A stretch of 43,549 bases of DNA from Bacteroidota bacterium (GTDB taxonomy: Bacteria; Bacteroidota; Bacteroidia; Bacteroidales; VadinHA17): assembly GCA_012729475.1 (NCBI GenBank), contig JAAYDB010000117.1, positions 1 through 43,549 of the forward strand, in the 5' to 3' direction. The position numbers were made by a program, and so were the translations under genes. The notes under the pieces were generated by a model. The model did no database searches. It saw nothing but the letters and a program-made list of their open reading frames with translations, and was not told the DNA's origin. Within the stretch, counting starts at the first letter, position 1. Every line of letters starts with the position of its first letter. Shown here piece after piece: positions 4,226 through 41,348 of this stretch.

Positions 4226-4235
4226 TAATCTCTGA

Positions 4236-7077: not shown

Positions 7078-7087
7078 TTATTACATT

Positions 7088-8128: not shown

Positions 8129-8142
8129 TTAGAACAGGCATA

Positions 8143-8859: not shown

Positions 8860-8941
8860 TGAGATCATTATTCCTTAATATACATAGAGTTATAATAAGG
8901 TGGAACAAGCTGAGCAGCCTTTATTACTCAATTTTTTACAG

Positions 8942-10759: not shown

Positions 10760-10762
10760 GGC

Positions 10763-13333: not shown

Positions 13334-13336
13334 AAA

Positions 13337-15278: not shown

Positions 15279-15286
15279 TGAGATTA

Positions 15287-25647: not shown

Positions 25648-26310
25648 TTATACAAGTTTCCCTTCAGACAATCTCAGATGATTTCTCATCATAGATGCCA
25701 GGTCCTCAGAATGTGTTACTACCAGCAAAGCAATTCCGTATTCTTCATTAATTTCCCTCAGAAGTCTGCCAAGCAGATTTGCATTTTTCTGATCAAGAGA
25801 ACCTGTGGGCTCATCTGCAAGAAGGAGAGAGGGTCTATTAACCAGTGCTCTGACAAGTGTTACACGTTGTGCTTCTCCACCTGATATCTGAAATGGGAAT
25901 TTATCCTTTAGATTAGTTATTCTGATCTTGTCCAATAATATATCAACATATTTTTCTTTTATTCCATAATCATCATCTGAAAGAGGGGAGGCTAACAGTG
26001 GAAGCATAATATTTTCCTTTACTGTCAGATGGTTCAGAAGCAGGTGATCCTGGAAAACGAATCCGATGTTCCTGTTTCTGTATTCTGCTGCTTCAGAGGA
26101 GTCATATCCGAGGATAGAGTTTCCCTGAAATTTTATTTTACCTGAGTCCGGACGATCCATTAATCCGGCAATATTTAGGAGGGTTGATTTACCCGAACCG
26201 GATGGACCCGTAACAGCTAGTGATTCACCTTTTTCAATATGCAGATTGAGTTCATCCAGTACTTTACCTCTGCCCGCATAAGATTTTGAAATATTTTCCA
26301 GAATCAGCAT
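25648..26310 (-). CDS. LolD/MacB-type ABC transporter ATPase
   Basis: A 220-residue ATPase. Walker A is GPSGSGKST near residues 35-43, the Q-loop is in FVFQDHLLLNHLTV near 85-98, the signature is ISGGEAQRV near 142-150, Walker B is LLLADEPTGSLD near 160-171, and the H-loop is VVTHSED near 197-203. All catalytic elements are intact. Its sequence places it with LolD, FtsE and MacB ATPases. It powers the FtsX-like permease 21 bp downstream and lies 19 bp after the glycosyltransferase gene. Confidence 0.94.
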   Translation of the reverse strand: MLILENISKSYAGRGKVLDELNLHIEKGESLAVTGPSGSGKSTLLNIAGLMDRPDSGKIKFQGNSILGYDSSEAAEYRNRNIGFVFQDHLLLNHLTVKENIMLPLLASPLSDDDYGIKEKYVDILLDKIRITNLKDKFPFQISGGEAQRVTLVRALVNRPSLLLADEPTGSLDQKNANLLGRLLREINEEYGIALLVVTHSEDLASMMRNHLRLSEGKLV

Positions 26311-26329: not shown

Positions 26330-27622
26330 TCAAAGGAATAATTGGTTGTAAAATGCTGAAAGATTACCAGCCATATTATCAAGAGACAGTTCAGACCTGA
26401 CTTGCTCTTTTCCTCTCTCACCCATTTCATGTGCTTTTTTCGGGTCTGTAAGCAAGGAAAGTAATCCGGATGATAATTCCTCAACGGTATCAGGAGAATA
26501 AATAATCCCACCTCCGGTCGCATTTAGTATTTCAGGAAATGCTCCGGTTGCAGGCTGAACAACAGGGATCCCTGCATAATTGGCTTCCAGTATATATAAT
26601 CCATATCCGTCATATTTATTTACAGGGACACTTATTATATCAACGGAGTTGAAAAACTCCCTTTTTTTATTACCCATGAAATCCGGAAAAATTCTAACAT
26701 GTTTTTTAAAACCATGTTCTTTTATCTTTTTTATCTGTGACAGAATAAATGGTCTGTCATCATTAGTGTAACCTCCTCCAACATTAAGAGTCAGATCAGG
26801 GATAAGGTTCTTAACTTTCAGATTGATAAAAGAATCGACTATTTTATCGAAACCATTGTTGTAGCTAACCCGGTTGAAAAATCCAATGGATGGGGGATGA
26901 ATATCCTTTTCCTTTTTCGGGCTATAGTCCGGTTCATAACCCATAGGTATAATATGTATTTTATTGTCTGGTATTCCTGTTTTGGAAATAAATAACTGCA
27001 TATAGTAATTACTGGGTGTCACGAAGCCATCAATATTTTTTCCTTCTGCAGCTATCATTTTCCAGGCTTTTTCCCTGTATGGGTCTTCCATTTCTTCAAT
27101 CCAGTCATCTTCGTTCAGTATGGAACAAACGATCTTAACATCCATTCTTTTTTTGATATGTTTTGCTATTCCTGCTATCAGTGCATTAGAAAGATGAATA
27201 ATATCTGGTTTACCTCCTTCCTGGAGATGTTTCACAAGACGGTCTACTTCCTCATCGCGAAAAGCTTTACCACCACCTATCATATCGAGAGTCAGTTCCT
27301 CATAACCTCTTGAGCGTGTCGAACCGGCCATCCTGGAAGCTATTTTGAGCAAGGGACCGGAATCAAGTATTTTATCAAAGAATGAAGGCATATTCCTGAA
27401 AAATCCTACTTTATCCCTTAGAAACATAGAAATAGCTCCAAAAAAGACTTCACTATCATAACCATTCAGCACCTCTTCAGGGCCGGGAGGAAGATACATA
27501 GGAATAGCATTTGCCTTAACACCTTTAACTTTTCTTAGCGCCCTGAGATATAACATGTCGCGATAACAGTTGGCACAATAGAAAGAGTTTCCGGAACCAG
27601 TAATAAGATATACTATCTTCAT
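26330..27622 (-). CDS. GT4-type glycosyltransferase with N-terminal CxxC
   Basis: A 430-residue GT-B glycosyltransferase. The C-terminal donor domain shows SIGFFNRVSYNNGFDKIVDSF near residues 245-265 and the GT4 segment DGYGLYILEANYAGIPVV near 340-357, with Glu in LEANYAG retained. The N-terminus has an uncommon Cys pair, Cys16 and Cys19 in FYCANCYRDM, directly after the first beta strand. I recall similar CxxC-RD starts in uncharacterised GT4 proteins of planctomycetes and relatives, but cannot check that here. There is no signal peptide, so it is cytoplasmic. It lies 111 bp after the propeller gene and 19 bp before the ABC ATPase. Donor and acceptor are unknown. Confidence 0.88.
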   Translation of the reverse strand: MKIVYLITGSGNSFYCANCYRDMLYLRALRKVKGVKANAIPMYLPPGPEEVLNGYDSEVFFGAISMFLRDKVGFFRNMPSFFDKILDSGPLLKIASRMAGSTRSRGYEELTLDMIGGGKAFRDEEVDRLVKHLQEGGKPDIIHLSNALIAGIAKHIKKRMDVKIVCSILNEDDWIEEMEDPYREKAWKMIAAEGKNIDGFVTPSNYYMQLFISKTGIPDNKIHIIPMGYEPDYSPKKEKDIHPPSIGFFNRVSYNNGFDKIVDSFINLKVKNLIPDLTLNVGGGYTNDDRPFILSQIKKIKEHGFKKHVRIFPDFMGNKKREFFNSVDIISVPVNKYDGYGLYILEANYAGIPVVQPATGAFPEILNATGGGIIYSPDTVEELSSGLLSLLTDPKKAHEMGERGKEQVRSELSLDNMAGNLSAFYNQLFL

Positions 27623-27733: not shown

Positions 27734-28849
27734 TTATTTTTTACCAAATGCCAGTAAGCGTCCGTCTTCAGTCAGAAAATAGAATTTACCCTCTGCCACT
27801 GCAGGAGAACTGCTGACAGGAGCACCTGCATTAAAACTCCAAATTTTTTCCCCGTCTTTTAATTCAAGCAAATGTATAAATCCATCAGTACTGCCAAAAA
27901 GAACTTTCCCGGGTGTTATTACTGCAGATCCTGTTATTCTTCCATTAGTCCTGTATTTCCATTTCAACTTACCTGTCATGAGATCAAAACAGTAAAGATA
28001 TTTATCTTCACTGCCTATTATAACACTATTGTAAGCTATTGCCGGAATTGCAATTATAGCTTCTCCGTCTGCTGACATTTCTGTTTTCCATAAAAGCTTT
28101 CCTGCAGACAGGTCGACACAGTATAAAATGCCATCATAATCGCCAAAACATGCTTTCCCACCAGCAAGGGCAGGAGAGGCTGCTATATATGTACCTATTT
28201 CAACAGTGTCTTTCTCTCTTCCGCTTACTGGATCTACTATCCGTATTATACCATCACAACCTCCGAAAACAATATTATTACCCGAAACAGCAGGCGTTCC
28301 GTTAACATAATTATTGGTTTCAAGTTTCCATAAGTATTTTCCTGATGAGGGATCCACACAATGTAGATAATAATCATAACTGCCAAAAATAAGGCCGGAT
28401 CTCTTACTCACCATCCATGTGTTTGCCGAACCTAATATCTGGTTTTCAGTGCTGTATGTCCACTCAATAGTTCCTGTATTTTTGTTAAAAGCCCTCATAT
28501 TACCATCTGTGGAACCTATTATCACTTTATCATTCCAAATAAAAGCAGGTGCTTCAATAATATTCCCTGCCGGAGATTTCCATTTCATTTTTCCATCACT
28601 CCCGACAGCTGTAAGATTTCCTTTATCATCACCGAAAAAGATCATGCTGTTACCAGCTACTGGCGAAGATTTGCTTCTTACACCCGATTTAAAGCTCCAG
28701 AGTAACACAGGTGAATCGGGAATCTCATTCAGGGTATTTCCTGAAAGATCACTTCGTCCTCTAAAAACAGGCCATTCATCTCTGTCAGGTTGAGCTACCG
28801 ACAAAAGAGAGTGGGCAAGAAATATGAGAACAACTATATAATATTTCAT
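27734..28849 (-). CDS. Exported PQQ-type (BamB-like) beta-propeller protein
   Basis: A 371-residue protein with a signal peptide (residues 1-19, ending in LLSVA) and about eight repeats of around 40 residues. Each repeat carries a G-x-L/I-x-W/Y motif, for example NTGTIEWTY, SSGKYLWKL, SAGKLLWKT, MTGKLKWKY. This predicts a complete eight-bladed propeller filling the mature protein. No lipobox is present, so a periplasmic product is likely. PQQ-type repeats alone do not prove that PQQ is bound. It starts 7 bp after the NuoG-like gene and is the fifth PQQ-type propeller of the locus. Confidence 0.9.
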   Translation of the reverse strand: MKYYIVVLIFLAHSLLSVAQPDRDEWPVFRGRSDLSGNTLNEIPDSPVLLWSFKSGVRSKSSPVAGNSMIFFGDDKGNLTAVGSDGKMKWKSPAGNIIEAPAFIWNDKVIIGSTDGNMRAFNKNTGTIEWTYSTENQILGSANTWMVSKRSGLIFGSYDYYLHCVDPSSGKYLWKLETNNYVNGTPAVSGNNIVFGGCDGIIRIVDPVSGREKDTVEIGTYIAASPALAGGKACFGDYDGILYCVDLSAGKLLWKTEMSADGEAIIAIPAIAYNSVIIGSEDKYLYCFDLMTGKLKWKYRTNGRITGSAVITPGKVLFGSTDGFIHLLELKDGEKIWSFNAGAPVSSSPAVAEGKFYFLTEDGRLLAFGKK

Positions 28850-28856
28850 GATAAAA

Positions 28857-29945
28857 TCATTTTTTCATTGTGAGAGCTCCTGTGGGACATACCTTAACAC
28901 ACAAACCAGCCTGCTTACTGAGTATATTCTCAAATTCTTCCGTGAGAGGTTCTGTTATAACTGAAATGAAGCCTCTGTTTACAAAACAAAGAGATGGTGT
29001 TTCACTACTGTCTTCACACACTCTTACACAAAGTCCACATTTTATACATTTACCATTTTCAAAAATAAGGCCGCTACTATGATTGATTTTTTTGGACAGA
29101 GGAGTATTCACAAGCTTCCCTGAAGGATCCTTCACAGCCAGGTCTTCGGCCAGCTTACGCAACTTGCAGTCTTCAGCAGCCCTGCAATCACAATGCATAC
29201 AGTTACCAGCCTCTTTGGAAGCTGACATAAAATCCTTGATCACAGACAATCTCCTTCCGTCGCCGGTACATTCCTTAAGCATCTCCCGTAGCTCAACTTC
29301 CTCAATACGTCCTATTCTTGATGAAAAACGATTTCTTATATGAGATTCACTTTTATTATTGATGTTTTTGTCTTCTTCCTTAAAATGTTCCTTTACAGCC
29401 GCCCTGGCCCTCTCATGAACAATATTATTAAAAATAAAGAGGCGTATATTTCGTATAGATATTGCCTGATCTATTTTTTTCCTTCTGCATGCATTTTCGC
29501 AGTATCCTTTACATTTAATGCATCTTATTTCTTCATGCATTGTCTCTGAACGGACAAGATCTGTTGCAGCTTCAAAATTTTCTTCTACCAGGAATCTGTT
29601 CATCAGAGGAATATTATAGCCTTCAGGGCAAACGATGCGACAAGGAGCTTCACATTCTGCCCTGTGTTCATATAATAGCAATTCCACTGCTTTTTTTCTC
29701 ATTGCAGTTACCTCTTCACCTGATGCTTCAATAATCATTCCATCCTGAGCGAGAGCAGAACATGAGGGTATAAATGTATTCTTCCTGAGATCTTTTACGA
29801 GACATACCATACATGATGAATATGTTTCCACACCTTCTCTGTGACATAGTGTTGGTATCATTACTCCTGCTATTTGTGCAGCCTGAAGTATTGTAGATCC
29901 TTCAGGAACTGATAACTCTGTATTATCGATTTTTAAATTAATCAT
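28857..29945 (-). CDS. NuoG/HydA-like iron-sulfur protein without catalytic domain
   Basis: A 362-residue soluble protein. Residues 1-75 are a [2Fe-2S] domain with Cys34, Cys45, Cys48 and Cys62 (C-x10-C-x2-C-x13-C), as in NuoG and HydA. Residues 95-175 resemble the iron-sulfur segment of the GltD/dihydropyrimidine dehydrogenase family (Cys98, 102, 106, then 142, 145, 149, 153). A further Cys group is 249, 252, 254, 260. The C-terminal ferredoxin has Cys300, 303, 306, 310, but the second motif keeps only Cys349 and Cys353 (GLCVKVCPTGAL). Neither the hydrogenase H-cluster domain nor a molybdopterin domain follows. It overlaps the NuoEF-fusion stop by 8 bp and is probably its electron-transfer partner. 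Confidence 0.87.
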   Translation of the reverse strand: MINLKIDNTELSVPEGSTILQAAQIAGVMIPTLCHREGVETYSSCMVCLVKDLRKNTFIPSCSALAQDGMIIEASGEEVTAMRKKAVELLLYEHRAECEAPCRIVCPEGYNIPLMNRFLVEENFEAATDLVRSETMHEEIRCIKCKGYCENACRRKKIDQAISIRNIRLFIFNNIVHERARAAVKEHFKEEDKNINNKSESHIRNRFSSRIGRIEEVELREMLKECTGDGRRLSVIKDFMSASKEAGNCMHCDCRAAEDCKLRKLAEDLAVKDPSGKLVNTPLSKKINHSSGLIFENGKCIKCGLCVRVCEDSSETPSLCFVNRGFISVITEPLTEEFENILSKQAGLCVKVCPTGALTMKK

Positions 29946-32343
29946 TGATATTAACTATTTCAATAGCATTTTCAGGACATACTACTCTGCAATTATCACA
30001 TTTAGTGCATAGTGTTATATCAATCTCATGCTTTTCATAAGGCTTAAAAGATATAGCATTGACAGGACATTCCTGGAAACATTTTGTGCAGCCTGTACAT
30101 TTGTCAGTCACGACATATTTAATCAGGCTTCTGCATTTTTTTGCCGGACAATAACCTGAAGCATGAGCTTCATATTCTTCCCGGAAGTATTTCAAACCTG
30201 TAAGCACAGGGTTCGGAGCAGTTTTACCCAGAGCACAAAGGCTTCCTTCTTTAACATACCAACACAGTTGCTCTAGTTTTTGGATTTCTGAAAGATCAGC
30301 CTTTCCTTCACTTAGTCGTTCTACTATGTCAAGCATAAGTTTTGTTCCGGTACGGCAGAATGTACATTTTCCGCATGACTGTTTATGAGTGAATGTAAGA
30401 AAATATTTTGCCACATCGACTATACAGTCAGTATCGTCAAGTACCACCATCCCTCCGGATCCCATCATAGCTCCCATTTTTGTTAACTGCTCATAATCGA
30501 TGGGGGTATCTGCCAGAGAGGCAGGGATACAACCTCCGGATGGTCCTCCAATTTGTACTGCTTTGAACTTGCGTCCCTCAGCAACACCATCTCCGATATT
30601 CCGGATTATCTCACGAATAGTTATTCCCATCGGCACTTCAATCAATCCTCCTTTAGATATTTTTCCGGCAAGAGCAAATACCTTTGTACCCTTACTTTCT
30701 TCAGTACCTATTGCTCTGAAAGCATCTGCACCATTCGATATGATCCATGGAACAAGTGCCAGGGTCTCCACATTATTAACAAGTGTGGGCTTATCTTTAT
30801 AGCCTTTCACGGCAGGATAGGGAGGACGCAGATGAGGAGTGCCTCTTTTACCTTCCATGGAAGCTATAAGGGCTGTCTCTTCTCCACAAACAAAGGCACC
30901 TGCTCCTTCAAAGACCCGTATATTAAATGAAAAACCGGTATCCAGTATGTTATTTCCAAGAATGCCATTTTCAGAACACTGTTGTATAGCATTTTTTATT
31001 CTTGCTACAGCAAGAGGGTATTCGGCACGTATATAGAAGATTCCTTCACCTGCACCTGTTGCATAAGCTGCAATTAACATTCCCTCAATTATCCTGAAAG
31101 GAAATGACTCAAGAAGCATCCGGTCCATAAAAGCACCAGGATCTCCTTCATCACCATTACAAACAACATATTTATCACCACTGTTACTTTCTGATAATAT
31201 TTTCCATTTTTTCCCTGTCAGAAATCCTGCTCCTCCACGTCCTCGTAATCCACTATCAGTAATTATCCGGGAAATATCAGATGATTTGTAGTCAAAGAGG
31301 GCTTTTTTGAAAGCTTCATATCCTCCCAGTAATATATATTCATTGAATGAATCGGGAGATAGAATACCGCTATACATAGTGGCAAGCCTAATCTGTTTTT
31401 CAAGAAAATTGTTAACATATTTCTCCCTTAATTCATCGGGAACATTTACAGGGCTTGACAGTTTGTCGTCTGAGACAAAAGTATCGGCAAGATCATATAA
31501 TTTGTGCTTCAATCTGTTATGAAGAGATCCTGGTGTTATGTGTTTAAGCAGGATATCCTCAACCTGTTCTTTTCTTACATTTGTATATCTGTATTTATCG
31601 TTATTTTTCACTATTTCCAGCAAGGGGGTCTGATTACAAACACCAACACAACCAACAGGTTTAATTTTTATATTCAGATCATATTCTTCACGTATCTTAA
31701 GTAGTCCCGAAAGTATTTGCTTACTGCCACCTGCAATACAACATGAGCCCAGGCCTATTCTCACCTCAGCATCATAATTATCGTCGCTTCTGGTCTTATC
31801 CAGGCTTATGTCCTGCTTCTGTACCCTAAGGAAATCCTTTAATATCAGTCCTGTCTGAGTAGGTTTTACATGACCGTATGTCTTATCATCTATTTGAACC
31901 ACCAGAGCCAGGGTGCAACAACCCAGACATGCTACCTCTTCGATTGAGAAAAGACCGTCAGGAGAACTATTATGAAGCTCATCTATATGTAGTTCACGCT
32001 TAAACGATTCAGAAATCAATTGAGAACCCTTCACATGGCATGCTGTACCGGAACAGATCTTAACTATATGCTTACCTACAGGCAGGTGCCGGAATTGTGT
32101 GTAGAATGTAGCAACGCCTGAAAGCTGCCCGGGTGTTACTTCTGTAACTTCACATATACGTTTTAGTGCTTCAGAGGGAAGATAATTAAGCTTCTTCTGT
32201 ACTTCCTGCAATATAATTATAACTTTATCCTTTTGACTGCCGGTAATCCTTACTACAGCATCAACAGCAGCATTTATTGATTCTGTGGTGACAGTCTGAC
32301 AATTGCAATTATTCAATTCAATATTTTTTTCTTCTTTTTTCAA
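29938..32343 (-). CDS. NuoE-NuoF fusion, NAD(P)H-oxidising flavoprotein with ferredoxin tail
   Basis: An 801-residue fusion in this model. Domains in order are a NuoE-like [2Fe-2S] thioredoxin fold (CSGTAC and CLGCC), a second thioredoxin-like domain (GSCCIAGG and GCVGVC), the NuoF core with FMN/NADH motifs GRGGAGFLTGKKW and CNGDEGDPGAFMDR, the SLBB region, the N3-type cluster motif CGKCTFCRTG, and two [4Fe-4S] motifs (CTGCTKCFQECP and CTKCDNCRVVCP). This matches HydB/HndC-type subunits with HndA fused in front. It should oxidise or form NAD(P)H in the cytoplasm. No ATG fits: the only one (32415) overlaps the upstream gene by 76 bp. I chose TTG at 32343, overlapping the upstream TGA; TTG at 32316 is possible. 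Confidence 0.9.
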   Translation of the reverse strand: MKKEEKNIELNNCNCQTVTTESINAAVDAVVRITGSQKDKVIIILQEVQKKLNYLPSEALKRICEVTEVTPGQLSGVATFYTQFRHLPVGKHIVKICSGTACHVKGSQLISESFKRELHIDELHNSSPDGLFSIEEVACLGCCTLALVVQIDDKTYGHVKPTQTGLILKDFLRVQKQDISLDKTRSDDNYDAEVRIGLGSCCIAGGSKQILSGLLKIREEYDLNIKIKPVGCVGVCNQTPLLEIVKNNDKYRYTNVRKEQVEDILLKHITPGSLHNRLKHKLYDLADTFVSDDKLSSPVNVPDELREKYVNNFLEKQIRLATMYSGILSPDSFNEYILLGGYEAFKKALFDYKSSDISRIITDSGLRGRGGAGFLTGKKWKILSESNSGDKYVVCNGDEGDPGAFMDRMLLESFPFRIIEGMLIAAYATGAGEGIFYIRAEYPLAVARIKNAIQQCSENGILGNNILDTGFSFNIRVFEGAGAFVCGEETALIASMEGKRGTPHLRPPYPAVKGYKDKPTLVNNVETLALVPWIISNGADAFRAIGTEESKGTKVFALAGKISKGGLIEVPMGITIREIIRNIGDGVAEGRKFKAVQIGGPSGGCIPASLADTPIDYEQLTKMGAMMGSGGMVVLDDTDCIVDVAKYFLTFTHKQSCGKCTFCRTGTKLMLDIVERLSEGKADLSEIQKLEQLCWYVKEGSLCALGKTAPNPVLTGLKYFREEYEAHASGYCPAKKCRSLIKYVVTDKCTGCTKCFQECPVNAISFKPYEKHEIDITLCTKCDNCRVVCPENAIEIVNIND

Positions 32344-34088
32344 TTTTCTGATATACAATAAAGGTAATCCCTGCCACGAATAAATATCTCTTTTTCTGAA
32401 AAAGCAGGTGTACAATCAGTCGGTTCTCCGATAGTGGGTTCAGCCACCAATATGAATTCCCCGGCAGCTTCAACAATTCTCATCATACCTGTCCTGTCAA
32501 GAAAAAAAACCTTATTATCTGCAATAACAGGAGAGGCATAGAATGATTCCATAAAATAGTGTGTCCAGAGAGTATCGCCAAGGGCCGCATTATAACAGGC
32601 GATCTCGCCGTATCCTGTAGGTACAAAAAGGTATTTGTTAGTTGCAACCGGACTGGCGACATCAGGCGTATACATATTATCTTCCCATATTATTGAAGCA
32701 TTCTCCCCCGGTTTTATTGCTGCTAGTTTGGCATAATCAGTTACAGCATAAACAATTGAACTGTTTAGGGCTACAGAAGGTGCTACATCTCCACTCATAC
32801 ATTCAACCGACCATAGCTCTTCACCAGTGAGAGGATCGAATGCAGTTACATCAGGGTTACCATTAATTATTATCTGAGCTTTTCCATCAAAATGACCTAT
32901 GACAGGAGAGGACCAGACCGGACGTCCTTTCCGGATTGTTTCATAAATAAGTTCTCCTGATCCGATATCGAATCCCATAAGAGAAATCTTTTCGTTGGAA
33001 TCAAACTGAACAGCAAGAATATTGTTATACATGATCAAAGAGGATGCATAACCATATATATTTTCAGGAGTACCAAGGTTTTTTGCCCATTTACGGTTAC
33101 CGTCATGGTCAAGGCATATAAGGTTTCCATTAGCATAGATAGCACAAACACCATATTCATTTACAGCTGCTGTTGAAACGGCAAGTCCTGCATCCGGGTC
33201 CATTTCCGGTAACTCTTCAGGTTCTCCAGGAAGGTCTGAGGCTGATGCAGTCCAGATAATATCCCCGTTATTCTTATCGAGACAATAAACTTCACAGGTT
33301 TTAGCCTCAGCACCGGTGATAAAGATCCTGTCTTTCCATATAACAGGAGAACTCTTTCCCTCTCTGGGAATAATAGTTTTCCATTTTATATTTTTCCCCT
33401 CATCACCGTCCCATTCAGTTGGATAACCTGATCCACCGGCAATTCCACGTCCGTCCACTCCCCTGAAAAATGGGAAATCCGACTCATGGACAACAAATTC
33501 TTCTCCGGAAATTATATAATCATCTGTTTCTTCTTGTGACGTTCCATTTTTGTCTGACCTGAATATACCGGAAAAAACTCCCTGACCACTACGATCATGC
33601 TGTTCAGAACGTAAATCAGGCAGGCTGTCCCTAAGGATAAAAGATGATGCCAGTGCAAGGAAAGTAATAACAGAAGCTGAAATAAATAACAAACGGCGAC
33701 CCATTCTGAGATTTGCAAGCGGATCTTTTTTTTCTCCTGGCACTGATGGCAATACCTTCTCCTGTCCTGAAATAAGCATCTGACAGAGAATGAAAACAGC
33801 TGCTCCTATAAGGAGCAGATAGGAACCAATCTCAATCTGACGCCGTGAAGAAAAATAAGCTTTTCGGGCCATCAGATCAATAGCCCTTATCTGTTCTGCC
33901 AGATCAGCATTATCCGGATTACTGTTATACTGTTCCTGAAGATCCAGTAATACAGGATTATCAAGTGGATCGATCGTTTTTAACTGAATCAGGCTGAACA
34001 ACATGGTTAGTGCAATGATAAGAATGAATATCCCTGATATCATACTTACAATTCTGAGGGCAGATATATCTTTTTCTGTAATCTTCAT
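32340..34088 (-). CDS. Membrane-anchored PQQ-type beta-propeller protein
   Basis: A 582-residue protein with three predicted membrane segments (about residues 12-36, 86-106 and 133-152) followed by a propeller domain from about residue 205 to the end. Propeller-blade motifs include NNGDIIWTA, LTGEELWSV and ALGDTLWTH. The domain opens with FPFFRGVDGRGIAGG, a typical entry strand of these proteins. The topology places the propeller outside the cytoplasmic membrane. It is encoded between the membrane polyferredoxin (7 bp upstream) and the NuoEF fusion, so it may be the structural link between the periplasmic and cytoplasmic parts of the locus. Cofactor content is unknown. Confidence 0.88.
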   Translation of the reverse strand: MKITEKDISALRIVSMISGIFILIIALTMLFSLIQLKTIDPLDNPVLLDLQEQYNSNPDNADLAEQIRAIDLMARKAYFSSRRQIEIGSYLLLIGAAVFILCQMLISGQEKVLPSVPGEKKDPLANLRMGRRLLFISASVITFLALASSFILRDSLPDLRSEQHDRSGQGVFSGIFRSDKNGTSQEETDDYIISGEEFVVHESDFPFFRGVDGRGIAGGSGYPTEWDGDEGKNIKWKTIIPREGKSSPVIWKDRIFITGAEAKTCEVYCLDKNNGDIIWTASASDLPGEPEELPEMDPDAGLAVSTAAVNEYGVCAIYANGNLICLDHDGNRKWAKNLGTPENIYGYASSLIMYNNILAVQFDSNEKISLMGFDIGSGELIYETIRKGRPVWSSPVIGHFDGKAQIIINGNPDVTAFDPLTGEELWSVECMSGDVAPSVALNSSIVYAVTDYAKLAAIKPGENASIIWEDNMYTPDVASPVATNKYLFVPTGYGEIACYNAALGDTLWTHYFMESFYASPVIADNKVFFLDRTGMMRIVEAAGEFILVAEPTIGEPTDCTPAFSEKEIFIRGRDYLYCISEN

Positions 34089-34095: not shown

Positions 34096-35373
34096 CTATC
34101 TTGTTTTTATATCAACAGGACAATATTTAAAACATCGTCCACAACTGTAACATTTACCCTGATGTGGTTTATAACCTGTCCTGTATTTTTTTCTTGTCAT
34201 TTCAAGCAAACCCAAACCCAGTGATAATCCAAGGAATACACCTGCCCATGGAGATGCTTTTTTAAATCTTGATACAACAGATTCTTCAATGGCAAATAGT
34301 TCTTCTTCAGTTTGTCCGGATTCTTTAAAAGCTGAAGCTGCTTCCGATACAGCCTCAACACCCATTATCTGTTCCGCCCTTATCTCTCTGGCGAGTTGTA
34401 CATCCCTGTGAACAGAACTCAGTGCCGGAGCTGCATTATACATAATGAGCCCGCCAGCTATAGTAAAAACGGGTATTAGTGCCAGATAAAGCAAAAAACG
34501 TTTTCGTGACTGAGGAATATCTTCTGTATATTGTCCTACAGTAGAAGGCAGAATAGCATCATAGGGACAGGCGTCTTCTTCACACAGCCTGCAATTAATG
34601 CACTCTGCGGGTGTGATACTAAGGTGTTTCCCTGCAAAACGTGAGAATATATTTAAAAGAACTCCATAAGGACAGAGATAACGGCAGTATGGTCTGTTAA
34701 TAAAGATACCGGCAATAAGAAGCAGTACTCCGAAAATAATCATCGTATATCTGCCATTCAGCCGAAAAATACCTATAAAGGGGTCGTATTTGCAAATAAT
34801 AAACTGACTTTCCATTGCAGCAAACAATACTGCCAGGGCAAGATATGCAAAAGGAATAGCTATCATAACTGATTCAACAGCTTTAGGTAGTTTGACCGGC
34901 CGAAAACCTGTCAGTTCCTGGATAGCTCCAAGTGGACAAACAGCTGCACAGAAGACCCTGCCGAAAAGGAGTGCAAAAAACAAAGGAATAAGGAAAAATA
35001 ACAGTGCGGTAAGAGGAATAGTATAAGTGTTGTTAAAAAGCGCCAATGCTACATTCTGAACTGAACCAACAGAACATATACAGCCTTGACGAAAGAATCC
35101 AAAATACACAAGTGAAAAAACAGACATCCATATAAGCCCCCTGCGAGATCTTTTCTTTATTGCCAGCCATGAGGTAATTGAAAGAGCAGATATTAAAGCA
35201 ACAACATCTATATAATCCCAGGTATGAGATCTCTGAAGAGGCAATTGATTCTCCGGATATTCATAATCTGTCTGAAATTCAGGACGAGGAAACCTTTCCT
35301 GGGCAAATAATCCGGCAGTAATAAAAAGCAGCAGTGTCAGTAACACGATATAATGAATACTTCGTTTTGTCAT
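34096..35373 (-). CDS. Membrane polyferredoxin, NapH/NosR-like
   Basis: A 425-residue protein with an N-terminal leader (residues 7-24), about six further membrane segments, paired CxxxCP motifs at Cys142/Cys146 and Cys230/Cys234, and a Cys98/Cys100 pair. A [4Fe-4S] motif lies at Cys258, 261, 264 and 269, and a final one at Cys408, 411, 414, 418 (CYSCGRCFKYCP). The CxxxCP pairs in membrane helices are the hallmark of NapH, MauN, CcoG and the NosR C-terminus, which pass electrons across or along the membrane. It follows the NapG-like ferredoxin by 62 bp, giving a napGH-like pair. No nap, nos or mau catalytic genes are present, so its partner must differ. Confidence 0.88.
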   Translation of the reverse strand: MTKRSIHYIVLLTLLLFITAGLFAQERFPRPEFQTDYEYPENQLPLQRSHTWDYIDVVALISALSITSWLAIKKRSRRGLIWMSVFSLVYFGFFRQGCICSVGSVQNVALALFNNTYTIPLTALLFFLIPLFFALLFGRVFCAAVCPLGAIQELTGFRPVKLPKAVESVMIAIPFAYLALAVLFAAMESQFIICKYDPFIGIFRLNGRYTMIIFGVLLLIAGIFINRPYCRYLCPYGVLLNIFSRFAGKHLSITPAECINCRLCEEDACPYDAILPSTVGQYTEDIPQSRKRFLLYLALIPVFTIAGGLIMYNAAPALSSVHRDVQLAREIRAEQIMGVEAVSEAASAFKESGQTEEELFAIEESVVSRFKKASPWAGVFLGLSLGLGLLEMTRKKYRTGYKPHQGKCYSCGRCFKYCPVDIKTR

Positions 35374-35435
35374 TTTGATTCTTTTCCTGATTTTTTACAT
35401 CAACTAGAAGGGATATACATAAATAGAAAATTTTG

Positions 35436-36002
35436 TTATACCGGCCTGCTCTTGTGTATATACTGATTATCTGCCGGCATCCGTGATACTGCCTGTGCAG
35501 GACAGTTTACTGCTATTGAGCATTCGTTACAATTAACACAGATATCCTGTTTTATTTGCATGTAAAGTGATCCGTTACCAAAATCCTTACATCCTTTAAC
35601 ACATTTGGCACATCCATCACACAGATCTTCATCAATAGTATATTCAAAAAAGGGCTCTTCAACATACTTCCGTGTTATTGCACCTACAGGACACATCTGG
35701 ACTTCAGCACCTGTTCCAATACTTTTTGCTCCTTCTTTCAGATAGCCCCCGCATAAATCACAATAACCGCAAAGAGCATGTTCATGTACACATTTTGATG
35801 CAGAAGGTGTAAGAATACATGCTGTCTTGCATTCTCCACAGGCAATACATTTATAGGGATCAATCTGCCATACATATCCTTTTAAGGATGTATTTTTTGA
35901 GAGTAAAACTGGCAATCCTGCAAGAGGAACAACAGCCAAAAGCTTTCCAAATATCTTAACGAAACCTCTTCTTGATTCATATTTATTCTTCTCTTCCTTC
36001 AT
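35436..36002 (-). CDS. Tat-exported multi-cluster ferredoxin, NapG/MauM-like
   Basis: A 188-residue protein. I chose ATG at 36002 because it gives a Tat signal (SRRGFVK at residues 10-16, then a hydrophobic stretch to about 35) and a 4-bp ATGA overlap with the preceding gene. Four cluster-binding regions follow: Cys52/55/58/62, Cys78/81/84 with Cys71 or Cys104, Cys128/131/134/138 and Cys155/158/161/167. This matches NapG/MauM, periplasmic ferredoxins with four [4Fe-4S] clusters. It is expected to carry electrons between the NapH-like membrane protein and an exported partner, here most plausibly one of the propellers, which is inference. Confidence 0.88.
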   Translation of the reverse strand: MKEEKNKYESRRGFVKIFGKLLAVVPLAGLPVLLSKNTSLKGYVWQIDPYKCIACGECKTACILTPSASKCVHEHALCGYCDLCGGYLKEGAKSIGTGAEVQMCPVGAITRKYVEEPFFEYTIDEDLCDGCAKCVKGCKDFGNGSLYMQIKQDICVNCNECSIAVNCPAQAVSRMPADNQYIHKSRPV

Positions 36003-36184
36003 TTCTCTGTCTTTAAGTATTTGATACAATCGATCTCTCCCCTGCATATCCCTTTTCCTGGGCATGAAGAACATGTGCTTCCCTCAACAGTACGCTTGCC
36101 GAGAATAAGAGCCATTCCTGCCAGAAAGACACCAAAGACGATCCTCATCATGTCTTTAAGGAAATCACTTCTTTTTATTTTCAT
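35999..36184 (-). CDS. Small membrane-anchored protein with conserved-looking Cys cluster
   Basis: A 61-residue protein starting at the ATG at 36184; a TTG five codons upstream is possible. It has a short basic N-terminus, one hydrophobic segment (about residues 14-30, RIVFGVFLAGMALILGK), then Cys38, Cys41, Cys47 and Cys53 (TCSSCPGKGICRGEIDC). The tail would face the periplasm and could hold an iron-sulfur cluster or metal. Its stop overlaps the start of the Tat-ferredoxin gene by 4 bp, strong support that it is translated. I do not recognise the family. Confidence 0.7.
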   Translation of the reverse strand: MKIKRSDFLKDMMRIVFGVFLAGMALILGKRTVEGSTCSSCPGKGICRGEIDCIKYLKTEK

Positions 36185-36245
36185 GTTGCTTGTTTTCAAT
36201 ATATCTGTTATTCATTTACCTGTAGTTTAATTTATTTTATGTTTT

Positions 36246-37166
36246 TTATTTCCTTTGAAAAATGTATATTCTTGAATCAGCAGGATTTGCTCCATATATA
36301 AAATTCCCATCTGTTGTTACATCAAGAGGAGCAGAAGCTGAAAAATCGTTTTCTGAAGACACATATTCAATAAAATCACCATCTTCTCCAAGTATTTTGA
36401 TCCTGTTGATTCCCTTTTCAGCAGTCACAAAACCTGTTGTGTTTATTGAAAAATGAGCAGGATTACAACATCCGCAAAAGTAATCAGGTTCCGTTCCACT
36501 TTCTCCGAAAGACGAAATGAAACGACCGTCTGCAGTCCATTTTTCAATTCTATGCTTCCCTGTATGTGCCAGATATAACATATTGTCCTCTGTAAAACAG
36601 ATGTCAAAATAAGGACTTGGTATGATAAGTTTATCCTCAAAATGACCTATCATTGAACGTACTTCACCATCTTTTTTAAGAATAAAAACTATTTTGTTTC
36701 CGGCGTCAGCTACTGCCAGATAATCATTATTTGCAGAAACTGAAGTTATAATACTGTTTGCTTCATAAGGACCCCATTCATTTATTATTTCTCCATTTTC
36801 TGTACTTAAAACAAAAATAAGTTCCTGTGAAGTCGCAAAAAGGGAATCTCCACTTACTGTCAAAGCTGTAACAGGATATAATGTCTCAATTTGCCAAAGT
36901 TTATTCAGTTGATTGTCATAACTTATGATGAATGAATTCCCTCCGGCATATATCTTACCGTCAGGACCGGCAGATATAGCTTTCAGACCTTCGTTAACAT
37001 AAAAATTATTGATAATACTCCAACTATCTTCAGGAGGAACAATATTGACTCTCTCATTTGTCTCACCCGGTTTTCTGTTACTCCTGGAAGTATCAAGAAT
37101 AATATAACCAATGAATGTCAGGATTATGATGAGAGAGAACAGGGCTGTAATTTTCTTTTTAACCAT
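36246..37166 (-). CDS. NHL-type beta-propeller with signal anchor and CGCC motif
   Basis: A 306-residue protein. I chose ATG at 37166, which follows a good purine-rich site and the preceding stop; the in-frame TTG upstream overlaps that gene. A membrane anchor lies at about residues 7-25. The rest shows five to six NHL/SMP-30-like blades, such as GLKAISAGPDGKIYAGG and DICFTEDNMLYLAHTGKHRIEKW. A striking FCGCCNPAHF segment sits at residues 230-239 (Cys231, Cys233, Cys234, His238), which might bind a metal. Unlike its neighbours it lacks the GxLxW repeats of PQQ-type propellers. It is probably on the outer face of the cytoplasmic membrane. Confidence 0.82.
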   Translation of the reverse strand: MVKKKITALFSLIIILTFIGYIILDTSRSNRKPGETNERVNIVPPEDSWSIINNFYVNEGLKAISAGPDGKIYAGGNSFIISYDNQLNKLWQIETLYPVTALTVSGDSLFATSQELIFVLSTENGEIINEWGPYEANSIITSVSANNDYLAVADAGNKIVFILKKDGEVRSMIGHFEDKLIIPSPYFDICFTEDNMLYLAHTGKHRIEKWTADGRFISSFGESGTEPDYFCGCCNPAHFSINTTGFVTAEKGINRIKILGEDGDFIEYVSSENDFSASAPLDVTTDGNFIYGANPADSRIYIFQRK

Positions 37167-37167
37167 A

Positions 37168-38637
37168 TCATTCTCTTTTACCGATAAATAATGAGACAAG
37201 GTTATGTGAATCCCTCATCAGAAGGTAATTACCTGCCAGAGCCATTGGCCCCCATGTTTCAATTCCGTCCAGGATACTGTATTGTGACATAAGTACAGCA
37301 CCGGAAGATTCAAGTTTAAATATATACATATTTGCATCGTCATCAAGGAGGAACATTCTGTCTCCACTAACTATATATGGTCCCAGACCACGTCCATACC
37401 TGTTTTCTTTACCGCTTGTCCACACAGGAGTTCTCAAATCTGACACATTATAACAAACCAGTTGTTTTTTGAGCGGACCAGCATTTTCAGGCATTACGGT
37501 CCATAACAAATTTCCTGTGATTATTGGTGTGTGCTGGTCGCTTGAAGCACCTTCCATAGCTTTATGTGTCTCTATTACTGTTACTGAGAATGATGAGCCA
37601 TCATAATCAATTCGTAATCTTGCTCCTCCTGCTCCGTAACTCCCGAATACAGCAATATCATTATTTTCAAGAAGTACGGGAGAAGCAGCAGTCGTTGCAG
37701 GATTCCATTCATTTGTCTGCCACAACAATCTGCCTCTGTCATTATCTTCGGCTGATATGCCACATACTCCCCCCACAGCATTGTAAACATACATTTTCTT
37801 ACCGTGTATTTTCATTGGCATTATTGATCCATGAGACATCCTCAGGGTATCCGGGTTCGGTGTCCGCCATAATTCCTTCCCTGTAGCACAATCAATGCCG
37901 ATCATAAGAGCTTTCCCTCCAGGTGCGAGTACTGCAACACCATCATCTATTAAAGGACACTGACCAGTATACCAGTCTGGTGTTATTTTTCCTTTTATAG
38001 TACCTGGTATGCCAAACTCTTTCTCCATGTCCAGAGTCCAGATTAATTCTCCTGTAAGAGGATTGACACACATAACATGCGATCTTGGTCCAATTGATAC
38101 AAGATATTCGTCAGTTACTGCAGGTACTGTCCGGGAATAGCCATGATTTCGCTTAATATCAACCTCATACCATCGGCGCCATAACTCAATACCTGAGTTA
38201 AGAGAAAAACATCTGAGCATATCTGCCCTTATTCTCTCATTATAATCAAGAATATATACTCTTCCATTATGAACAGCCGGACCGGCATATCCTTCACCAA
38301 GTGTTAATGTCCATTCAACCGGAGGGCCTGTTGAATCCCATGTATCGTTAACAGGTATTGTATCATGGTTTATATTATCGAAGTTTGATCCTCTGAACCT
38401 TGGCCAGCTTCCGGGAACCATCTCATCCAAAGGATTCATATTACTAAATAACTCCCCAATTACAACAGTATCACTTTTTGGTTCTATTTTTGGCCTGTTG
38501 TCCATTCCTGCTATCCTTTTTTCGATTTCAGAAGGATAATGATCTCCACTATACCACCAGACGAGAGGTGTCAGGAAAAAAACTGCTGCTATTGCACCAA
38601 AAAAATATGTTTTTTTCTTTTTTTGATTAATTCGCAT
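37168..38637 (-). CDS. Signal-anchored PQQ-type beta-propeller protein
   Basis: A 489-residue protein with an N-terminal anchor (about residues 10-29, TYFFGAIAAVFFLTPLVWWY) and a propeller domain from about residue 75, opening with SWPRFRGSNFDN. Blade motifs include NSGIELWRRW, LTGELIWTLD and ATGKELWRTP. Extra loops make it longer than a minimal eight-bladed propeller. It ends 1 bp before the NHL-propeller start and begins 14 bp after the 441-residue propeller, so it is co-transcribed with both. Substrate, partner and PQQ content are unknown. Confidence 0.9.
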   Translation of the reverse strand: MRINQKKKKTYFFGAIAAVFFLTPLVWWYSGDHYPSEIEKRIAGMDNRPKIEPKSDTVVIGELFSNMNPLDEMVPGSWPRFRGSNFDNINHDTIPVNDTWDSTGPPVEWTLTLGEGYAGPAVHNGRVYILDYNERIRADMLRCFSLNSGIELWRRWYEVDIKRNHGYSRTVPAVTDEYLVSIGPRSHVMCVNPLTGELIWTLDMEKEFGIPGTIKGKITPDWYTGQCPLIDDGVAVLAPGGKALMIGIDCATGKELWRTPNPDTLRMSHGSIMPMKIHGKKMYVYNAVGGVCGISAEDNDRGRLLWQTNEWNPATTAASPVLLENNDIAVFGSYGAGGARLRIDYDGSSFSVTVIETHKAMEGASSDQHTPIITGNLLWTVMPENAGPLKKQLVCYNVSDLRTPVWTSGKENRYGRGLGPYIVSGDRMFLLDDDANMYIFKLESSGAVLMSQYSILDGIETWGPMALAGNYLLMRDSHNLVSLFIGKRE

Positions 38638-38651: not shown

Positions 38652-39977
38652 TTAATCCTGTATGTTAAAAGCCATCAACGCCTCTCCATGCCTCAGGTAT
38701 AACACCCCGTTGTGAATAACCGGATGAGACCAGTATGGACCTGACCCTGCTCGTATACGGAAACTGCTTATAAGATCAAACTTTTCCGGTGAAGGTCTTA
38801 TTAATCCAACGTTGCCAGACCGTTCATCGTAGATATATAACAAGCCCTCAGCTGAAATAACAGAACCCTTACTGTGCCATTTCTCCTCCCACATTTTTTC
38901 TCCTGTTCTGGCATCCAGACAACACCAGTTCCCGTTATTATTATTAAGCCAGTTAGCCCCATATAAATATCCGTCGACCATTACTACACCTCCGTGATGC
39001 ACATCGAGATTTGTGTCGGTCCATTCGACAGAAGCTTTCCTTCCATTTTCAGTGAGAGCTATTAGTATACTCCCATGATCATAGCCTCCCGTAAAAAATA
39101 TCTTATCATTGAAAAACAATGGAGTCACACATAATATCTGACCATCATTTTCTTCCTTTTTGCCAAGGGCTTCATGATGATTTATTGTCCATAATATTTT
39201 ACCGTGAGAAACATCAACTCCAAAAATATATCTTGGCGTAACATTAACAAGCAGTTTGTAATCATTGTAATTAATTAATACCGGAGAGATATAAGAAGGA
39301 GGGACACCCAGGCTTTCTGTTTTCCAGATTAAGTCGCCATTGTGTTTATTCAGGGCAATAGTTGTTGTTTCGTGTCCGCCCGGTGTAAAGTAAAGCTTAT
39401 CTCCATCAATAAGTAAAGCTTCTGCTATACCCCAGGATCCATAAGTTCCTTTATAAATTTCACTGGCTTTCACTGACCAGATTATTTCTCCTGAAATTCC
39501 GTCAATACAGGCCAGATCCCCATAGCCACTGGATACATAAACTCTTTCACCTTCTACAGTAGGAGTACAGCGCGATTCCGGATAAGAATCCCTCCATATC
39601 CTTCCGTATGGAGTTTTCCATTTTATTTTACCGTATTCATCAAGAGCGAAAAGAAAATCATTGGTATCATCGCATCCTGTAATATAAATGGTATTATTCC
39701 CGAATGAGACAGAAGAATGACCTTTCAATAATTCCACATTTTTCCATATCATCGAAAGTCCCTGTTCCGGCCATTCTTTTAGTAAACCTTCTTCTGAAGA
39801 AACTCCGCTTCTGTTCTCTTCTCTCCATCCATATATTAATACATCAGGGGATATATTTACTTTACCTCCTGACACATCAGGTGATCCTGACGGAGCTGCA
39901 CCTAATAATCTGAATATAGCAAAGATAATGGCACAAACCGCAATGAAAAGGGCGGATATCACTAATGTCTTTTTCAT
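38652..39977 (-). CDS. Signal-anchored PQQ-type beta-propeller protein, paralogue A
   Basis: A 441-residue protein with a signal anchor (about residues 4-25) and a PQQ-type propeller. It opens with YGWREENRSGV and LLKEWPEQGLSMIW, and carries blade motifs ISGEIIWSV, HNGDLIWKT, SHGKILWTI and RTGEKMWEE. It is similar along its whole length to the 417-residue protein encoded upstream: both share the segments SAEGLLYI/SADGMLYI, ERSGNVGLI/ERTGNVGLV and GSGPYWSHPV/GSGPYWAHPV. The pair looks like a tandem duplication. It sits 117 bp after its paralogue and 14 bp before the next propeller gene. Confidence 0.9.
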   Translation of the reverse strand: MKKTLVISALFIAVCAIIFAIFRLLGAAPSGSPDVSGGKVNISPDVLIYGWREENRSGVSSEEGLLKEWPEQGLSMIWKNVELLKGHSSVSFGNNTIYITGCDDTNDFLFALDEYGKIKWKTPYGRIWRDSYPESRCTPTVEGERVYVSSGYGDLACIDGISGEIIWSVKASEIYKGTYGSWGIAEALLIDGDKLYFTPGGHETTTIALNKHNGDLIWKTESLGVPPSYISPVLINYNDYKLLVNVTPRYIFGVDVSHGKILWTINHHEALGKKEENDGQILCVTPLFFNDKIFFTGGYDHGSILIALTENGRKASVEWTDTNLDVHHGGVVMVDGYLYGANWLNNNNGNWCCLDARTGEKMWEEKWHSKGSVISAEGLLYIYDERSGNVGLIRPSPEKFDLISSFRIRAGSGPYWSHPVIHNGVLYLRHGEALMAFNIQD

Positions 39978-40094: not shown

Positions 40095-41348
40095 TCATTT
40101 TGCACTGATTGAATATACAGCAAGGTATTCTCCATGCCTTATGAACAATCTGCCTTTGTTAATCACAGGATGGGCCCAATATGGCCCAGAACCTTTTATA
40201 ATACGGAAATGGCTTATAACATCCAGTTCGCGGGAAGAGGGTTTTACAAGTCCTACATTGCCAGTCCTTTCTTCCATAATATATAACATGCCATCAGCAG
40301 AAATAATTGAACCTTTATTATGCCAGGAATTTACCCACATTGTTTTTCCTGACTCCCAGTCAACACATATCCATTTCCCGCTCGAATTATTATCATGAGT
40401 TGAGCTGAAAACAAAATTACCAAGAAGTACTGCACCTCCTACATGAGGAGTCAGTTCACTGTTAGTCCAGACAACAGTCGGATCACCTGTTTTATTTAAC
40501 TTTAGTTTAACCGCCACCTGAGAATAGCCATTGGGAACCAAAAGATACCCATCACGGTAAAGAGGAGTATTTGTGTGATTTCTCCGTCCGCCCCTTTGTG
40601 AGTTTAAACCCTCATAATAATATTTCCACAAAAGTTTTCCATTACTGGTGTCAATTGCAAGAATATGGCCAACTGATACCGTAATCAGAATCTTCTGTCC
40701 ATTAAAATCAATTAGCAAGGGATTAACATACTGAGTACCCTCATTAATAGCAAGTGTTTCCCATATAACTCTACCGTCAGCAATATTAAAGGCAACTGCC
40801 GCTGCCATATTGCCCCCTGGTACACCTATTACCTTATTATCAACAATAACAGGTGTTTCGGATATCCCAAAACGGGGATGCGATGCTTTATATTTATTAA
40901 AATAATTAACTGACCAGATAATTTTTCCGTTGGTATTTAAACATACCAGGTCGCCCTGTCCACTTATTACCAGGATCCTGTTACCGGCCATAACAGGTGT
41001 GCCTCTTGAGTCGGGATAATTACTGTCAGATGCTTTACCATAAATGGTTTCCCATATTTTTTTCCCAGTCTGTGTAAATGCTGAAATAACATCATTGTCA
41101 CCCTTACGACCAGTAATATAAATTGCATCTGAAGTAATAAGGGGACTGGAGAATCCTGTTCCTGCATCATCTATATCCCATAACAAAACAGGCCCTGATT
41201 CCGGCCACGTTTTCATAAGATTAGTCTCATTATATATTCCTGACCTTTCAATTCCGCGCCACCCATCATATATCTGTGCTGATGTGTCCTCCCACAAACC
41301 TGCCAGTAAGAAGAATACTATTTGTATAATAAGAGTAAATTTTTTCAT
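40095..41348 (-). CDS. Exported PQQ-type beta-propeller protein, paralogue B
   Basis: A 417-residue protein with a cleavable signal peptide (residues 1-25, ending in TSAQ) and a PQQ-type propeller. The opening YDGWRGIERSGIYNE ... WPESGPVLLWDI matches a common start of exported PQQ-propeller proteins in Bacteroidota and planctomycetes. Blade motifs include TGKKIWET, NGKIIWSV, NGKLLWKYY and SGKTMWVNS. It is the first gene of the 14-gene minus-strand run and is divergent from asnB across a 409-bp AT-rich spacer. It shows neither heme-binding CxxCH nor the vicinal Cys pair of quinoprotein alcohol dehydrogenases, so a classic quinoprotein dehydrogenase is unlikely. Confidence 0.9.
   Translation of the reverse strand: MKKFTLIIQIVFFLLAGLWEDTSAQIYDGWRGIERSGIYNETNLMKTWPESGPVLLWDIDDAGTGFSSPLITSDAIYITGRKGDNDVISAFTQTGKKIWETIYGKASDSNYPDSRGTPVMAGNRILVISGQGDLVCLNTNGKIIWSVNYFNKYKASHPRFGISETPVIVDNKVIGVPGGNMAAAVAFNIADGRVIWETLAINEGTQYVNPLLIDFNGQKILITVSVGHILAIDTSNGKLLWKYYYEGLNSQRGGRRNHTNTPLYRDGYLLVPNGYSQVAVKLKLNKTGDPTVVWTNSELTPHVGGAVLLGNFVFSSTHDNNSSGKWICVDWESGKTMWVNSWHNKGSIISADGMLYIMEERTGNVGLVKPSSRELDVISHFRIIKGSGPYWAHPVINKGRLFIRHGEYLAVYSISAK

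Follow-up and report, generated by a model that had tools for sequence, protein, structure and literature searches.

The Bfu family comprises HydABC-like electron-bifurcating enzymes that have been described with a wide range of third substrates, and proton pumping is attributed to the two membrane-bound types put forward to date (PMC9304861). In the Stn transhydrogenase (StnABC; PMC10482914, structure 8oh5), residues 102-565 of StnC form a GltD-like domain with sites for flavin adenine dinucleotide (FAD) and NADPH. NapH-like proteins, for their part, have been described as modular carriers for reductases and oxidases (PMC8238504), and background on NapH and NosR is given in PMC5928378 and PMC9012536. 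Here we analyze a stretch of 43,549 nucleotides (nt) from a Bacteroidota bacterium of the VadinHA17 lineage (contig JAAYDB010000117.1 of assembly GCA_012729475.1; the whole stretch is called the window), in which a ferredoxin (G) and a membrane polyferredoxin (H), adjacent as in NapGH, lie in an operon that also encodes two proteins resembling cytosolic Bfu and Stn subunits (EF and Gn) and a series of putative propellers. Our preferred reading, put forward tentatively, is that its products form a redox complex of the inner membrane. This complex would be a membrane variant within the Bfu family, with a chain of H, G and propellers in the place of the third partner.

The operon has up to 14 tightly packed genes, all on the minus strand (41348-22294), with called overlaps between pC and NHL, sCC and G, pTM and EF, and EF and Gn. 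The genes that bear most directly on this reading are given below, with the number of compared loci in which each was found:

37168-38637, minus strand: pC, an eight-bladed propeller with invariant C143, C190, C227, H165, H187 and H269, probably membrane-anchored; 26 of 28 loci
36246-37199, minus strand: NHL, an NHL-repeat-like protein with a hydrophobic N-terminus and an invariant C244-C245-x-P247; 23 of 28 loci
35436-36002, minus strand: G, a ferredoxin with a twin-arginine translocation (Tat) signal and cysteines for four [4Fe-4S] clusters; 28 of 28 loci
34096-35373, minus strand: H, a membrane polyferredoxin with two CxxxCP and two 4Fe-4S motifs; the anchor of all 28 loci
32340-34088, minus strand: pTM, three predicted membrane helices and a PQQ_2 propeller, directly after H; 28 of 28 loci
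29938-32415, minus strand: EF, fused NuoE (BfuC) and HydB/NuoF (BfuB) parts; 22 of 28 loci
28857-29945, minus strand: Gn, a BfuA/StnC-like (NuoG/StnC-like) iron-sulfur protein without the FAD/NADPH domain; 22 of 28 loci

The operon is a real, unit-like arrangement whose neighbors are shared in 28 loci. Strong H matches occur in 36 other genomes, of which 27 supplied a locus, and locus L085 was added to these; the 27 were chosen for long contigs and diversity, not at random, and a gene was counted as present if a same-strand frame gave a BLAST match of at least 40 amino acids (aa), contig ends counting as misses. G, H and pTM were consecutive in 28/28 loci, with gaps ranging from overlap (partly due to over-long called starts) to 203 nt; chance adjacency of the pair is ruled out, since the gene order recurs in all 28 loci, including one from a different phylum. 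The sequence-only reading had described G and H as an orphan pair, which no longer holds, as they stand in a conserved operon with a likely cytosolic partner, EF-Gn, in 22 of the 28 loci. EF and Gn (32415-28857) went unmentioned there, and they change the interpretation. Its observation that propellers lie on both sides is borne out (pTM downstream; NHL, pC, pB and pA upstream, beyond sCC), and its suggestion that a propeller could be a partner stands as a possibility, to which we add that the most constant neighbor is pTM, which begins 7 nt downstream of H. The H distances correlated with those of G, pTM, pC, NHL, EF, Gn and pQ (r 0.91-0.97, 17 to 29 rows), which shows that the genes are inherited together and not that their products are in contact.

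The resemblance to the Bfu family lies in EF and Gn. The top solved relatives of EF, whose listed start is TTG and whose true start may be further inside, are chains named NfnB (9n5u), NADH dehydrogenase (9bov), HoxF (8oh5), NiFe hydrogenase subunit B (7t2r) and HydB; 8oh5_B is its third-best solved match. The B2 cluster and its histidine are stressed as a Bfu feature, with C438, H525, C531 and C536 as ligands (PMC9304861), and these residues of 7t2r_B align with C664, H751, C756 and C761 of EF in 22 of 22 sequences, namely the window and 21 loci (L085, in which the NuoE and NuoF parts are separate frames, was excluded). The cysteines that we assigned to clusters B1, B3, B4 and C1, from motifs and the alignment, were likewise kept in all 22, except C687 (21/22). 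As judged by this alignment, EF keeps the diagnostic Bfu ligands except at the B5 site, and its domain set and most of its cluster ligands are consistent with a bifurcating activity. The likeness to the Bfu family (PMC9304861) extends to a domain for flavin mononucleotide (FMN) and NADH, to aligned B1-B4 and C1 ligands including the B2 histidine, and to a BfuA-type subunit in Gn. The differences are that BfuC and BfuB are fused here, that B5 is atypical, that Gn is without the third-substrate domain, and that the genes alongside encode a membrane polyferredoxin, a Tat ferredoxin and propellers. The terms NapH, propeller and PQQ do not occur in the main text of PMC9304861, which was the part covered.

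Among solved structures, Gn is matched best by 8oh5_C, the StnC chain of the Stn transhydrogenase (PMC10482914). Residues 2-172 and 241-360 of Gn match residues 4-174 and 554-673 of this chain, and 68 residues replace 379. The shortening falls in the GltD region, where FAD and NADPH are bound; Gn also has no FdhF-like C-terminus. A longer insert was found at this place in 6 of 22 loci (L052-L055, L057 and L085, with proteins of 480-534 aa), as well as in the Gn of another genome, G051 (525 aa), while the other genus loci and L058 were without it. On the evidence of the alignments, the third-substrate region of a Stn/Nfn-type enzyme is therefore absent or reduced in Gn. Since Gn is without the FAD/NADPH domain, which is the third-substrate site of Stn, H is the most likely third partner, and the simplest inference is that H replaced that domain in this role.

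The reading frames (G 36002-35436, H 35373-34096), motifs and cysteines of this pair, described earlier as an adjacent Tat ferredoxin and CxxxCP polyferredoxin resembling NapGH, were confirmed as stated. The ATG of G at 36002 overlaps the stop of sCC by 4 nt, and the protein starts with a twin-arginine signal, YESRRGFVKIFGK, the RR motif of which is present in 28 of 29 aligned homologues. Sixteen of its 17 cysteines are kept in 29/29 aligned sequences and C95 in 97%, and this conserved set is enough for four [4Fe-4S] clusters. The two CxxxCP motifs of H are at positions 142 and 230 and its two 4Fe-4S motifs at 258-269 and 408-418, the second of the latter sitting beyond two more predicted helices; the cysteines of all these motifs are invariant in 29 aligned sequences, as are C98, C100 and C194 on the predicted periplasmic side. 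In 16 rows, the H loops bearing CxxxCP or 4Fe-4S motifs were net positive on average (means 2.4 to 4.1) and those called periplasmic were near neutral; by the positive-inside rule, both [4Fe-4S] motifs of H are probably cytosolic.

NapGH shares with this pair the adjacency of a Tat four-cluster ferredoxin and a CxxxCP membrane protein with two 4Fe-4S motifs, and G and H might accordingly be what is left of a nap, nos or mau cluster after loss of its terminal enzyme. The general likeness of H to NapH and NosR would fit this: it scored 52.9 bits on the NapH/MauN model TIGR02163 (cut-off 213.05) and 50.4 bits on the NosR model (cut-off 1000). Both scores are far below the cut-offs, and G, for which the longer frame 35436-36074 was used, had no match to the NapG/MauM models TIGR00397 and PRK09476 at E 1e-3. 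As a control, the NapH of G051 reached 323.2 bits on TIGR02163 and 361.8 bits on the equivalog (cut-off 234), and its NapG reached 200 and 359.2 bits on TIGR00397 and PRK09476, above both cut-offs (equivalog cut-off 269). In that genome NapGH adjoins a molybdopterin protein and a NosZ propeller match lies elsewhere; as it also holds the G-H-pTM set, canonical NapGH and the G-H pair are separate, coexisting systems.

A maximum-likelihood tree of 33 rows placed the H family (support 99/98) and NapH (97/90) in separate clades, with NosR as the sister of the H family at a support that is not firm (87/76). The tree retains 33 of 36 rows, following removal of a wrong NosR frame (L118) and of two rows without the core motifs, and leaves out about ten further fetched polyferredoxin loci; it keeps four long-branch rows, CcoG and L130 have odd composition, and the start of L130 resembles a wrong frame. 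On this tree, H stands in a clade apart from NapH. The phylogeny proposed in the sequence-only reading was run against NapH, NosR and CcoG; MauN is absent from the tree, as none of 46 annotated or unannotated plasmid records bears that label.

The content of the window's own genome (97.3% complete) was consistent with the earlier statement that no nitrate or nitrous oxide enzyme accompanies the pair. The molybdopterin oxidoreductase family PF00384 had 0 matches (control positive in 11/14), and the NosZ propeller family PF18764 also had 0, with a control positive in 0/14, though the relative G051 matched. No nap, nos or mau enzyme was apparent by eye in the translated window, methylamine dehydrogenase not having been searched genome-wide. 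H does not fall inside the NapH or NosR clade, and no separate napA or nosZ was found, so the outcome that the sequence-only reading had named as refuting did not occur. Given also the invariant cysteines, the neighbors conserved in 28/28 loci and the coexistence with canonical NapGH in G051, a remnant is hardly credible, and the clade, model scores, genome content and neighbors together led us to rule this candidate out. The pair differs from NapGH in that G and H fail the Nap models, that H forms a separate clade and has a displaced second 4Fe-4S motif, and that no NapA was found. With the NosR/PceC polyferredoxins H has the CxxxCP membrane core in common; it differs from them in that no FMN-binding family was among its Pfam matches and no NosZ was found (reductive dehalogenase was not searched). 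The own genome encodes another membrane polyferredoxin with seven CxxxCP motifs (519 aa; G000:C20:15119-16678, or L065:8120-9679), and similar frames occur in G008 and G034.

Several observations weigh against a Bfu-like complex. In EF, the place of the first B5 cysteine of 7t2r_B is taken by G221, a glycine in 22/22 sequences, which makes the B5 site atypical, and in L085 one more B5-site cysteine appears by eye to be replaced. The residue corresponding to C476 of B2 is Ser in the window and is Ser in 13, Thr in 5 and Cys in 4 of the 22 sequences; for this position, the excerpted text of PMC9304861 names Cys and Thr only. Five fetched same-genus loci (L048-L051 and L064) are without EF and Gn, and in G051 EF-Gn is on another contig. 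The structure model of H is poor (predicted local distance difference test score, pLDDT, 63.9), no propeller has an identified cofactor, and gene order alone does not prove a complex. As to the B5 site, the Nfn and Stn chains look like EF there, and StnB has been reported with B1-B4 and a zinc only (PMC10482914). Within EF residues 221-260 (window about 31750-31650), C225, C226, C256 and C260 are kept in 22/22, C225-C226 being an extra adjacent pair.

The five loci without EF-Gn form one group in the H tree (Shimodaira-Hasegawa-like approximate likelihood ratio test 93, node not starred), and because they group together, a single loss is the simplest account. The best other EF matches in these genomes are 41-51% identical and HydB-like. 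Since H keeps all its cysteines there, it probably still carries electrons, and it would then draw on another donor, for example soluble ferredoxin or quinol. As some loci lack EF-Gn beside H, the tie between them is frequent, not obligate. At least two more HydB-type genes are present in the window's own genome, the first in a HydABC-like cluster (G000:C85:1967-6072) and the second at G000:C12:61010-62857, so EF is not the sole enzyme of its type in this genome.

The cysteines that H retains where EF-Gn is missing would also be expected if H oxidized or reduced menaquinone in the manner of NapH, with EF-Gn coupling it to NAD(H) and ferredoxin as a non-pumping analogue of Nuo-Bfu, and with G and the propellers drawing on the quinol pool. 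NapH is held to be a quinol-oxidizing subunit (PMC5928378, PMC9012536, PMC8238504), and a Nuo-Bfu with menaquinone has been proposed (PMC9304861). The own genome encodes a UbiA-like prenyltransferase with 275.7 bits on TIGR01475 (cut-off 180.8); it also matches the MqnP models, but at 244-247 bits, short of the 375-430 set as their cut-offs, which leaves menaquinone no more than plausible. A quinol partner alone, however, leaves unexplained why the third-substrate domain should be missing from a Gn encoded beside H, and we regard this alternative as unlikely.

At the periplasmic end, our preferred reading depends on the propellers. The remaining genes of the operon, among them three further propellers, are as follows:

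40095-41348, minus strand: pA, a PQQ_2/BamB-like propeller (Pfam PQQ_2, 93.1 bits) with a hydrophobic N-terminus, probably a signal peptide; 8 of 28 loci
38652-39977, minus strand: pB, a PQQ_2 propeller (77 bits), probably anchored through its hydrophobic N-terminus; 11 of 28 loci
35999-36199, minus strand: sCC, 66 aa, with a single hydrophobic stretch and with four cysteines that do not vary across 21 aligned sequences; 20 of 28 loci
27734-28849, minus strand: pQ, a PQQ_2/BamB-like propeller with an N-terminal hydrophobic segment; 26 of 28 loci
26330-27622, minus strand: a GT4-type glycosyltransferase; 20 of 28 loci
25648-26310, minus strand: the ATPase of an ATP-binding cassette (ABC) transporter, named by reading its translation; 21 of 28 loci
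22294-25626, minus strand: an FtsX-type ABC permease with two FtsX stretches; 21 of 28 loci

The most conserved propeller is pC, for which 27 sequences showed 41-79% identity to that of the window, the three Cys and three His being invariant and numerous further positions fixed as well. Its structure model is a propeller (pLDDT 86.9). Among the 50 VIA-align matches listed, most were BamB, with YxaL at the top and tetrathionate hydrolase among them (Z 28-33, root-mean-square deviation (rmsd) 2.6-3.9, 311-360 residues, 10-16% identity), and the Foldseek list was led by tetrathionate hydrolase and BamB; the comparison with BamB 2yh3 gave Z 31.7 and rmsd 3.0. The pC sequence had no match among solved structures at E 0.01. 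A shared propeller fold shows no function, and that PQQ dehydrogenases are not among the 50 fold matches listed is no evidence of absence. NHL, the C244-C245-x-P247 of which is invariant in 24 sequences, has no Pfam family and is a propeller only by a weak NCBIfam NHL-repeat match (40.6 bits, cut-off 350), and sCC has no Pfam or NCBIfam family. The best match to the BamB model TIGR03300 was that of pQ (146.9 bits, cut-off 285.2). For pTM, the 32-row alignment includes three extra frames that are not those beside H.

That five propellers belong to the PQQ_2 superfamily, with pQ above the Pfam PQQ cut-off (41 against 26.7 bits), suggests a scheme with electrons running inward: the propellers, as members of the PQQ-like superfamily, would act as dehydrogenases in the periplasm, the electrons would enter through G and H, and EF-Gn would split them onto NAD+ and ferredoxin in a true bifurcation. 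The reaction of NiFe-Bfu has been called fully reversible (PMC9304861), and NapH-like genes occur with the ethanol oxidase ExaA in 172 genomes (PMC8238504). On the PQQ-dehydrogenase model TIGR03075 (cut-off 480.05), however, pA, pB, pC, pTM and pQ scored 49.2, 31.0, 20.7, 36.6 and 72.5 bits; with all five below the cut-off, the propellers are unsupported as PQQ enzymes, and we consider inward flow of this kind quite unlikely. PqqC was matched in 0 of 60 genomes, but its control also matched nowhere.

The BamB-like fold of pC (2yh3) and the ABC and glycosyltransferase genes, found in 21/28 and 20/28 loci, respectively, would also suit a machine for envelope assembly or maturation, in which H and G provide the reducing power to mature or insert an exported lipid, glycan or metalloprotein handled by the ABC transporter, the glycosyltransferase and the BamB-like propellers. 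NosR works beside the maturation genes NosDFY, which offers an analogy. In three genomes (G007, G018 and G058) a terpenoid-type cassette lies beside the operon on the same strand. Set against this, sharing a propeller fold says nothing about function, the machine has no known substrate, and the window's own genome gave no match to DUF116, by which the cassette is marked; we consider an envelope machine improbable. A terpenoid link was dropped as a common function owing to this lack of DUF116. The cassette consists of five genes, encoding an FeS protein, a radical SAM protein, a DUF116-polyprenyl synthetase fusion and two further proteins, one of ~290 aa and one of ~600 aa that resembles squalene-hopene cyclase. 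It lies beside the operon in L109 (G007:C83:20000-36000), L115 (G018:C308:1-12000) and L114 (G058:C21:24000-37500) and apart from it in L110, L111 and L112; in L110 (G030) it adjoins other propellers, ABC transporter genes and a two-component pair. From their translations, a response regulator and a sensor kinase accompany the cassette at L109:3196-4998 (between cassette and operon) and at L110:4501-6343.

Returning to the preferred reading of a membrane variant of the Bfu family, we infer a complex, its bifurcation, its electron path and direction, and a role for the propellers along the following lines. EF would be a fused BfuBC core handling NAD(H) and ferredoxin together in the cytosol, and Gn would be a BfuA/StnC-like iron-sulfur chain without the third-substrate site of Stn. 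Electrons would pass from there to H as the most likely third partner, which by analogy with NapGH and NosR would pass them across the membrane to the Tat-exported, four-cluster G, and G would exchange them with membrane-anchored propellers. pTM may serve as a fixed docking or partner subunit, while pC and NHL, because of their invariant Cys and His residues, would be the likeliest holders of a periplasmic active site. Outward flow, in which NADH and reduced ferredoxin together reduce a periplasmic acceptor, seems to us the more likely direction. A bolder version, that a Bfu core with a transmembrane wire as its third partner forms a confurcation-driven periplasmic oxidoreductase of a new class, with a propeller-held Cys/His active site and an NADPH site lost on tying the enzyme to the membrane, seems to us doubtful.

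The distribution of the system was examined in several samples. Strong H matches (E below 1e-100) were found in 37 of 60 genomes searched, the own genome included: 31 are among the 36 genomes of the same genus, and 6 are among the 24 others and come from six further Bacteroidales families. Besides the genus, the longer layout is found in five of these families and in a Desulfobacterales metagenome-assembled genome (MAG); G051, of the sixth family, has only G-H-pTM there. A contig end truncates the operon at pTM in G017, a further genome of the same genus. Of the 21 loci returned by a scan of named genomes, 20 are in MAGs that bear the label Bacteroidota (mostly Bacteroidales) and that, to judge by their isolate names, come from digesters, fens and sediments; the remaining locus is in the Desulfobacterales MAG, and neighbors were examined in this last one, L085, alone. 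Of 395 sampled genomes of the phylum, only the window's own matched H at E 1e-60, and among 291 sampled genomes of the class of the Desulfobacterales MAG one matched at E 1e-30, the MAG itself (4 to 6 first-look candidates were scored per listed genome in both samples). These single matches indicate that the system is patchy. The Desulfobacterales MAG (L085/L183, JAOZSB010000045.1) holds the core operon with separate NuoE and NuoF frames. The remainder of contig L183 looks, by eye, like what we take to be a Desulfobacterales contig, which makes transfer likelier than misbinning.

None of the 14 operon proteins contains a CxxCH heme motif, and no FMN-binding domain was among the Pfam matches of the operon proteins scanned. 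Anti-phage defense was considered and rejected, there being no PADLOC match among the 7 of 14 operon proteins scanned. Elsewhere in the window, translations at 3230-11536 show MoxR, DUF58, VWA and TPR genes resembling the Bat (aerotolerance) operon, and those at 12851-16528 show a lysine-2,3-aminomutase-like radical SAM protein, two D-Ala-D-Ala-ligase-like ATP-grasp proteins and a GNAT acetyltransferase, which could make an acetylated beta-lysine derivative.

Among described arrangements, the NapH-like flavinylated systems (PMC8238504) likewise use a NapH-like modular carrier to connect the cell with varied periplasmic enzymes; they differ in their FMN-binding domain, for which the operon proteins scanned gave no Pfam match, and the propellers here are without a known enzyme function. 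The nearest published analogy we found is provided by 31 clusters in which NuoF-like genes stand beside MsrQ-like membrane proteins (PMC8238504). No account of the operon was found in the literature searched by title and start of abstract, a search whose scope excluded most subscription papers and all preprints. As far as that search reaches, the operon has not been described before, and it would be a membrane form of the Bfu family that leads, by way of a NapGH-like pair, to propellers in the periplasm. If this is true, the merged electrons of NADH and ferredoxin could be sent across the membrane through iron-sulfur proteins in these uncultured bacteria, and BamB-like propellers, usually called structural, may have a redox role. 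The graded series of BfuA-type subunits, in turn, provides material for studying how a third-substrate site is lost.

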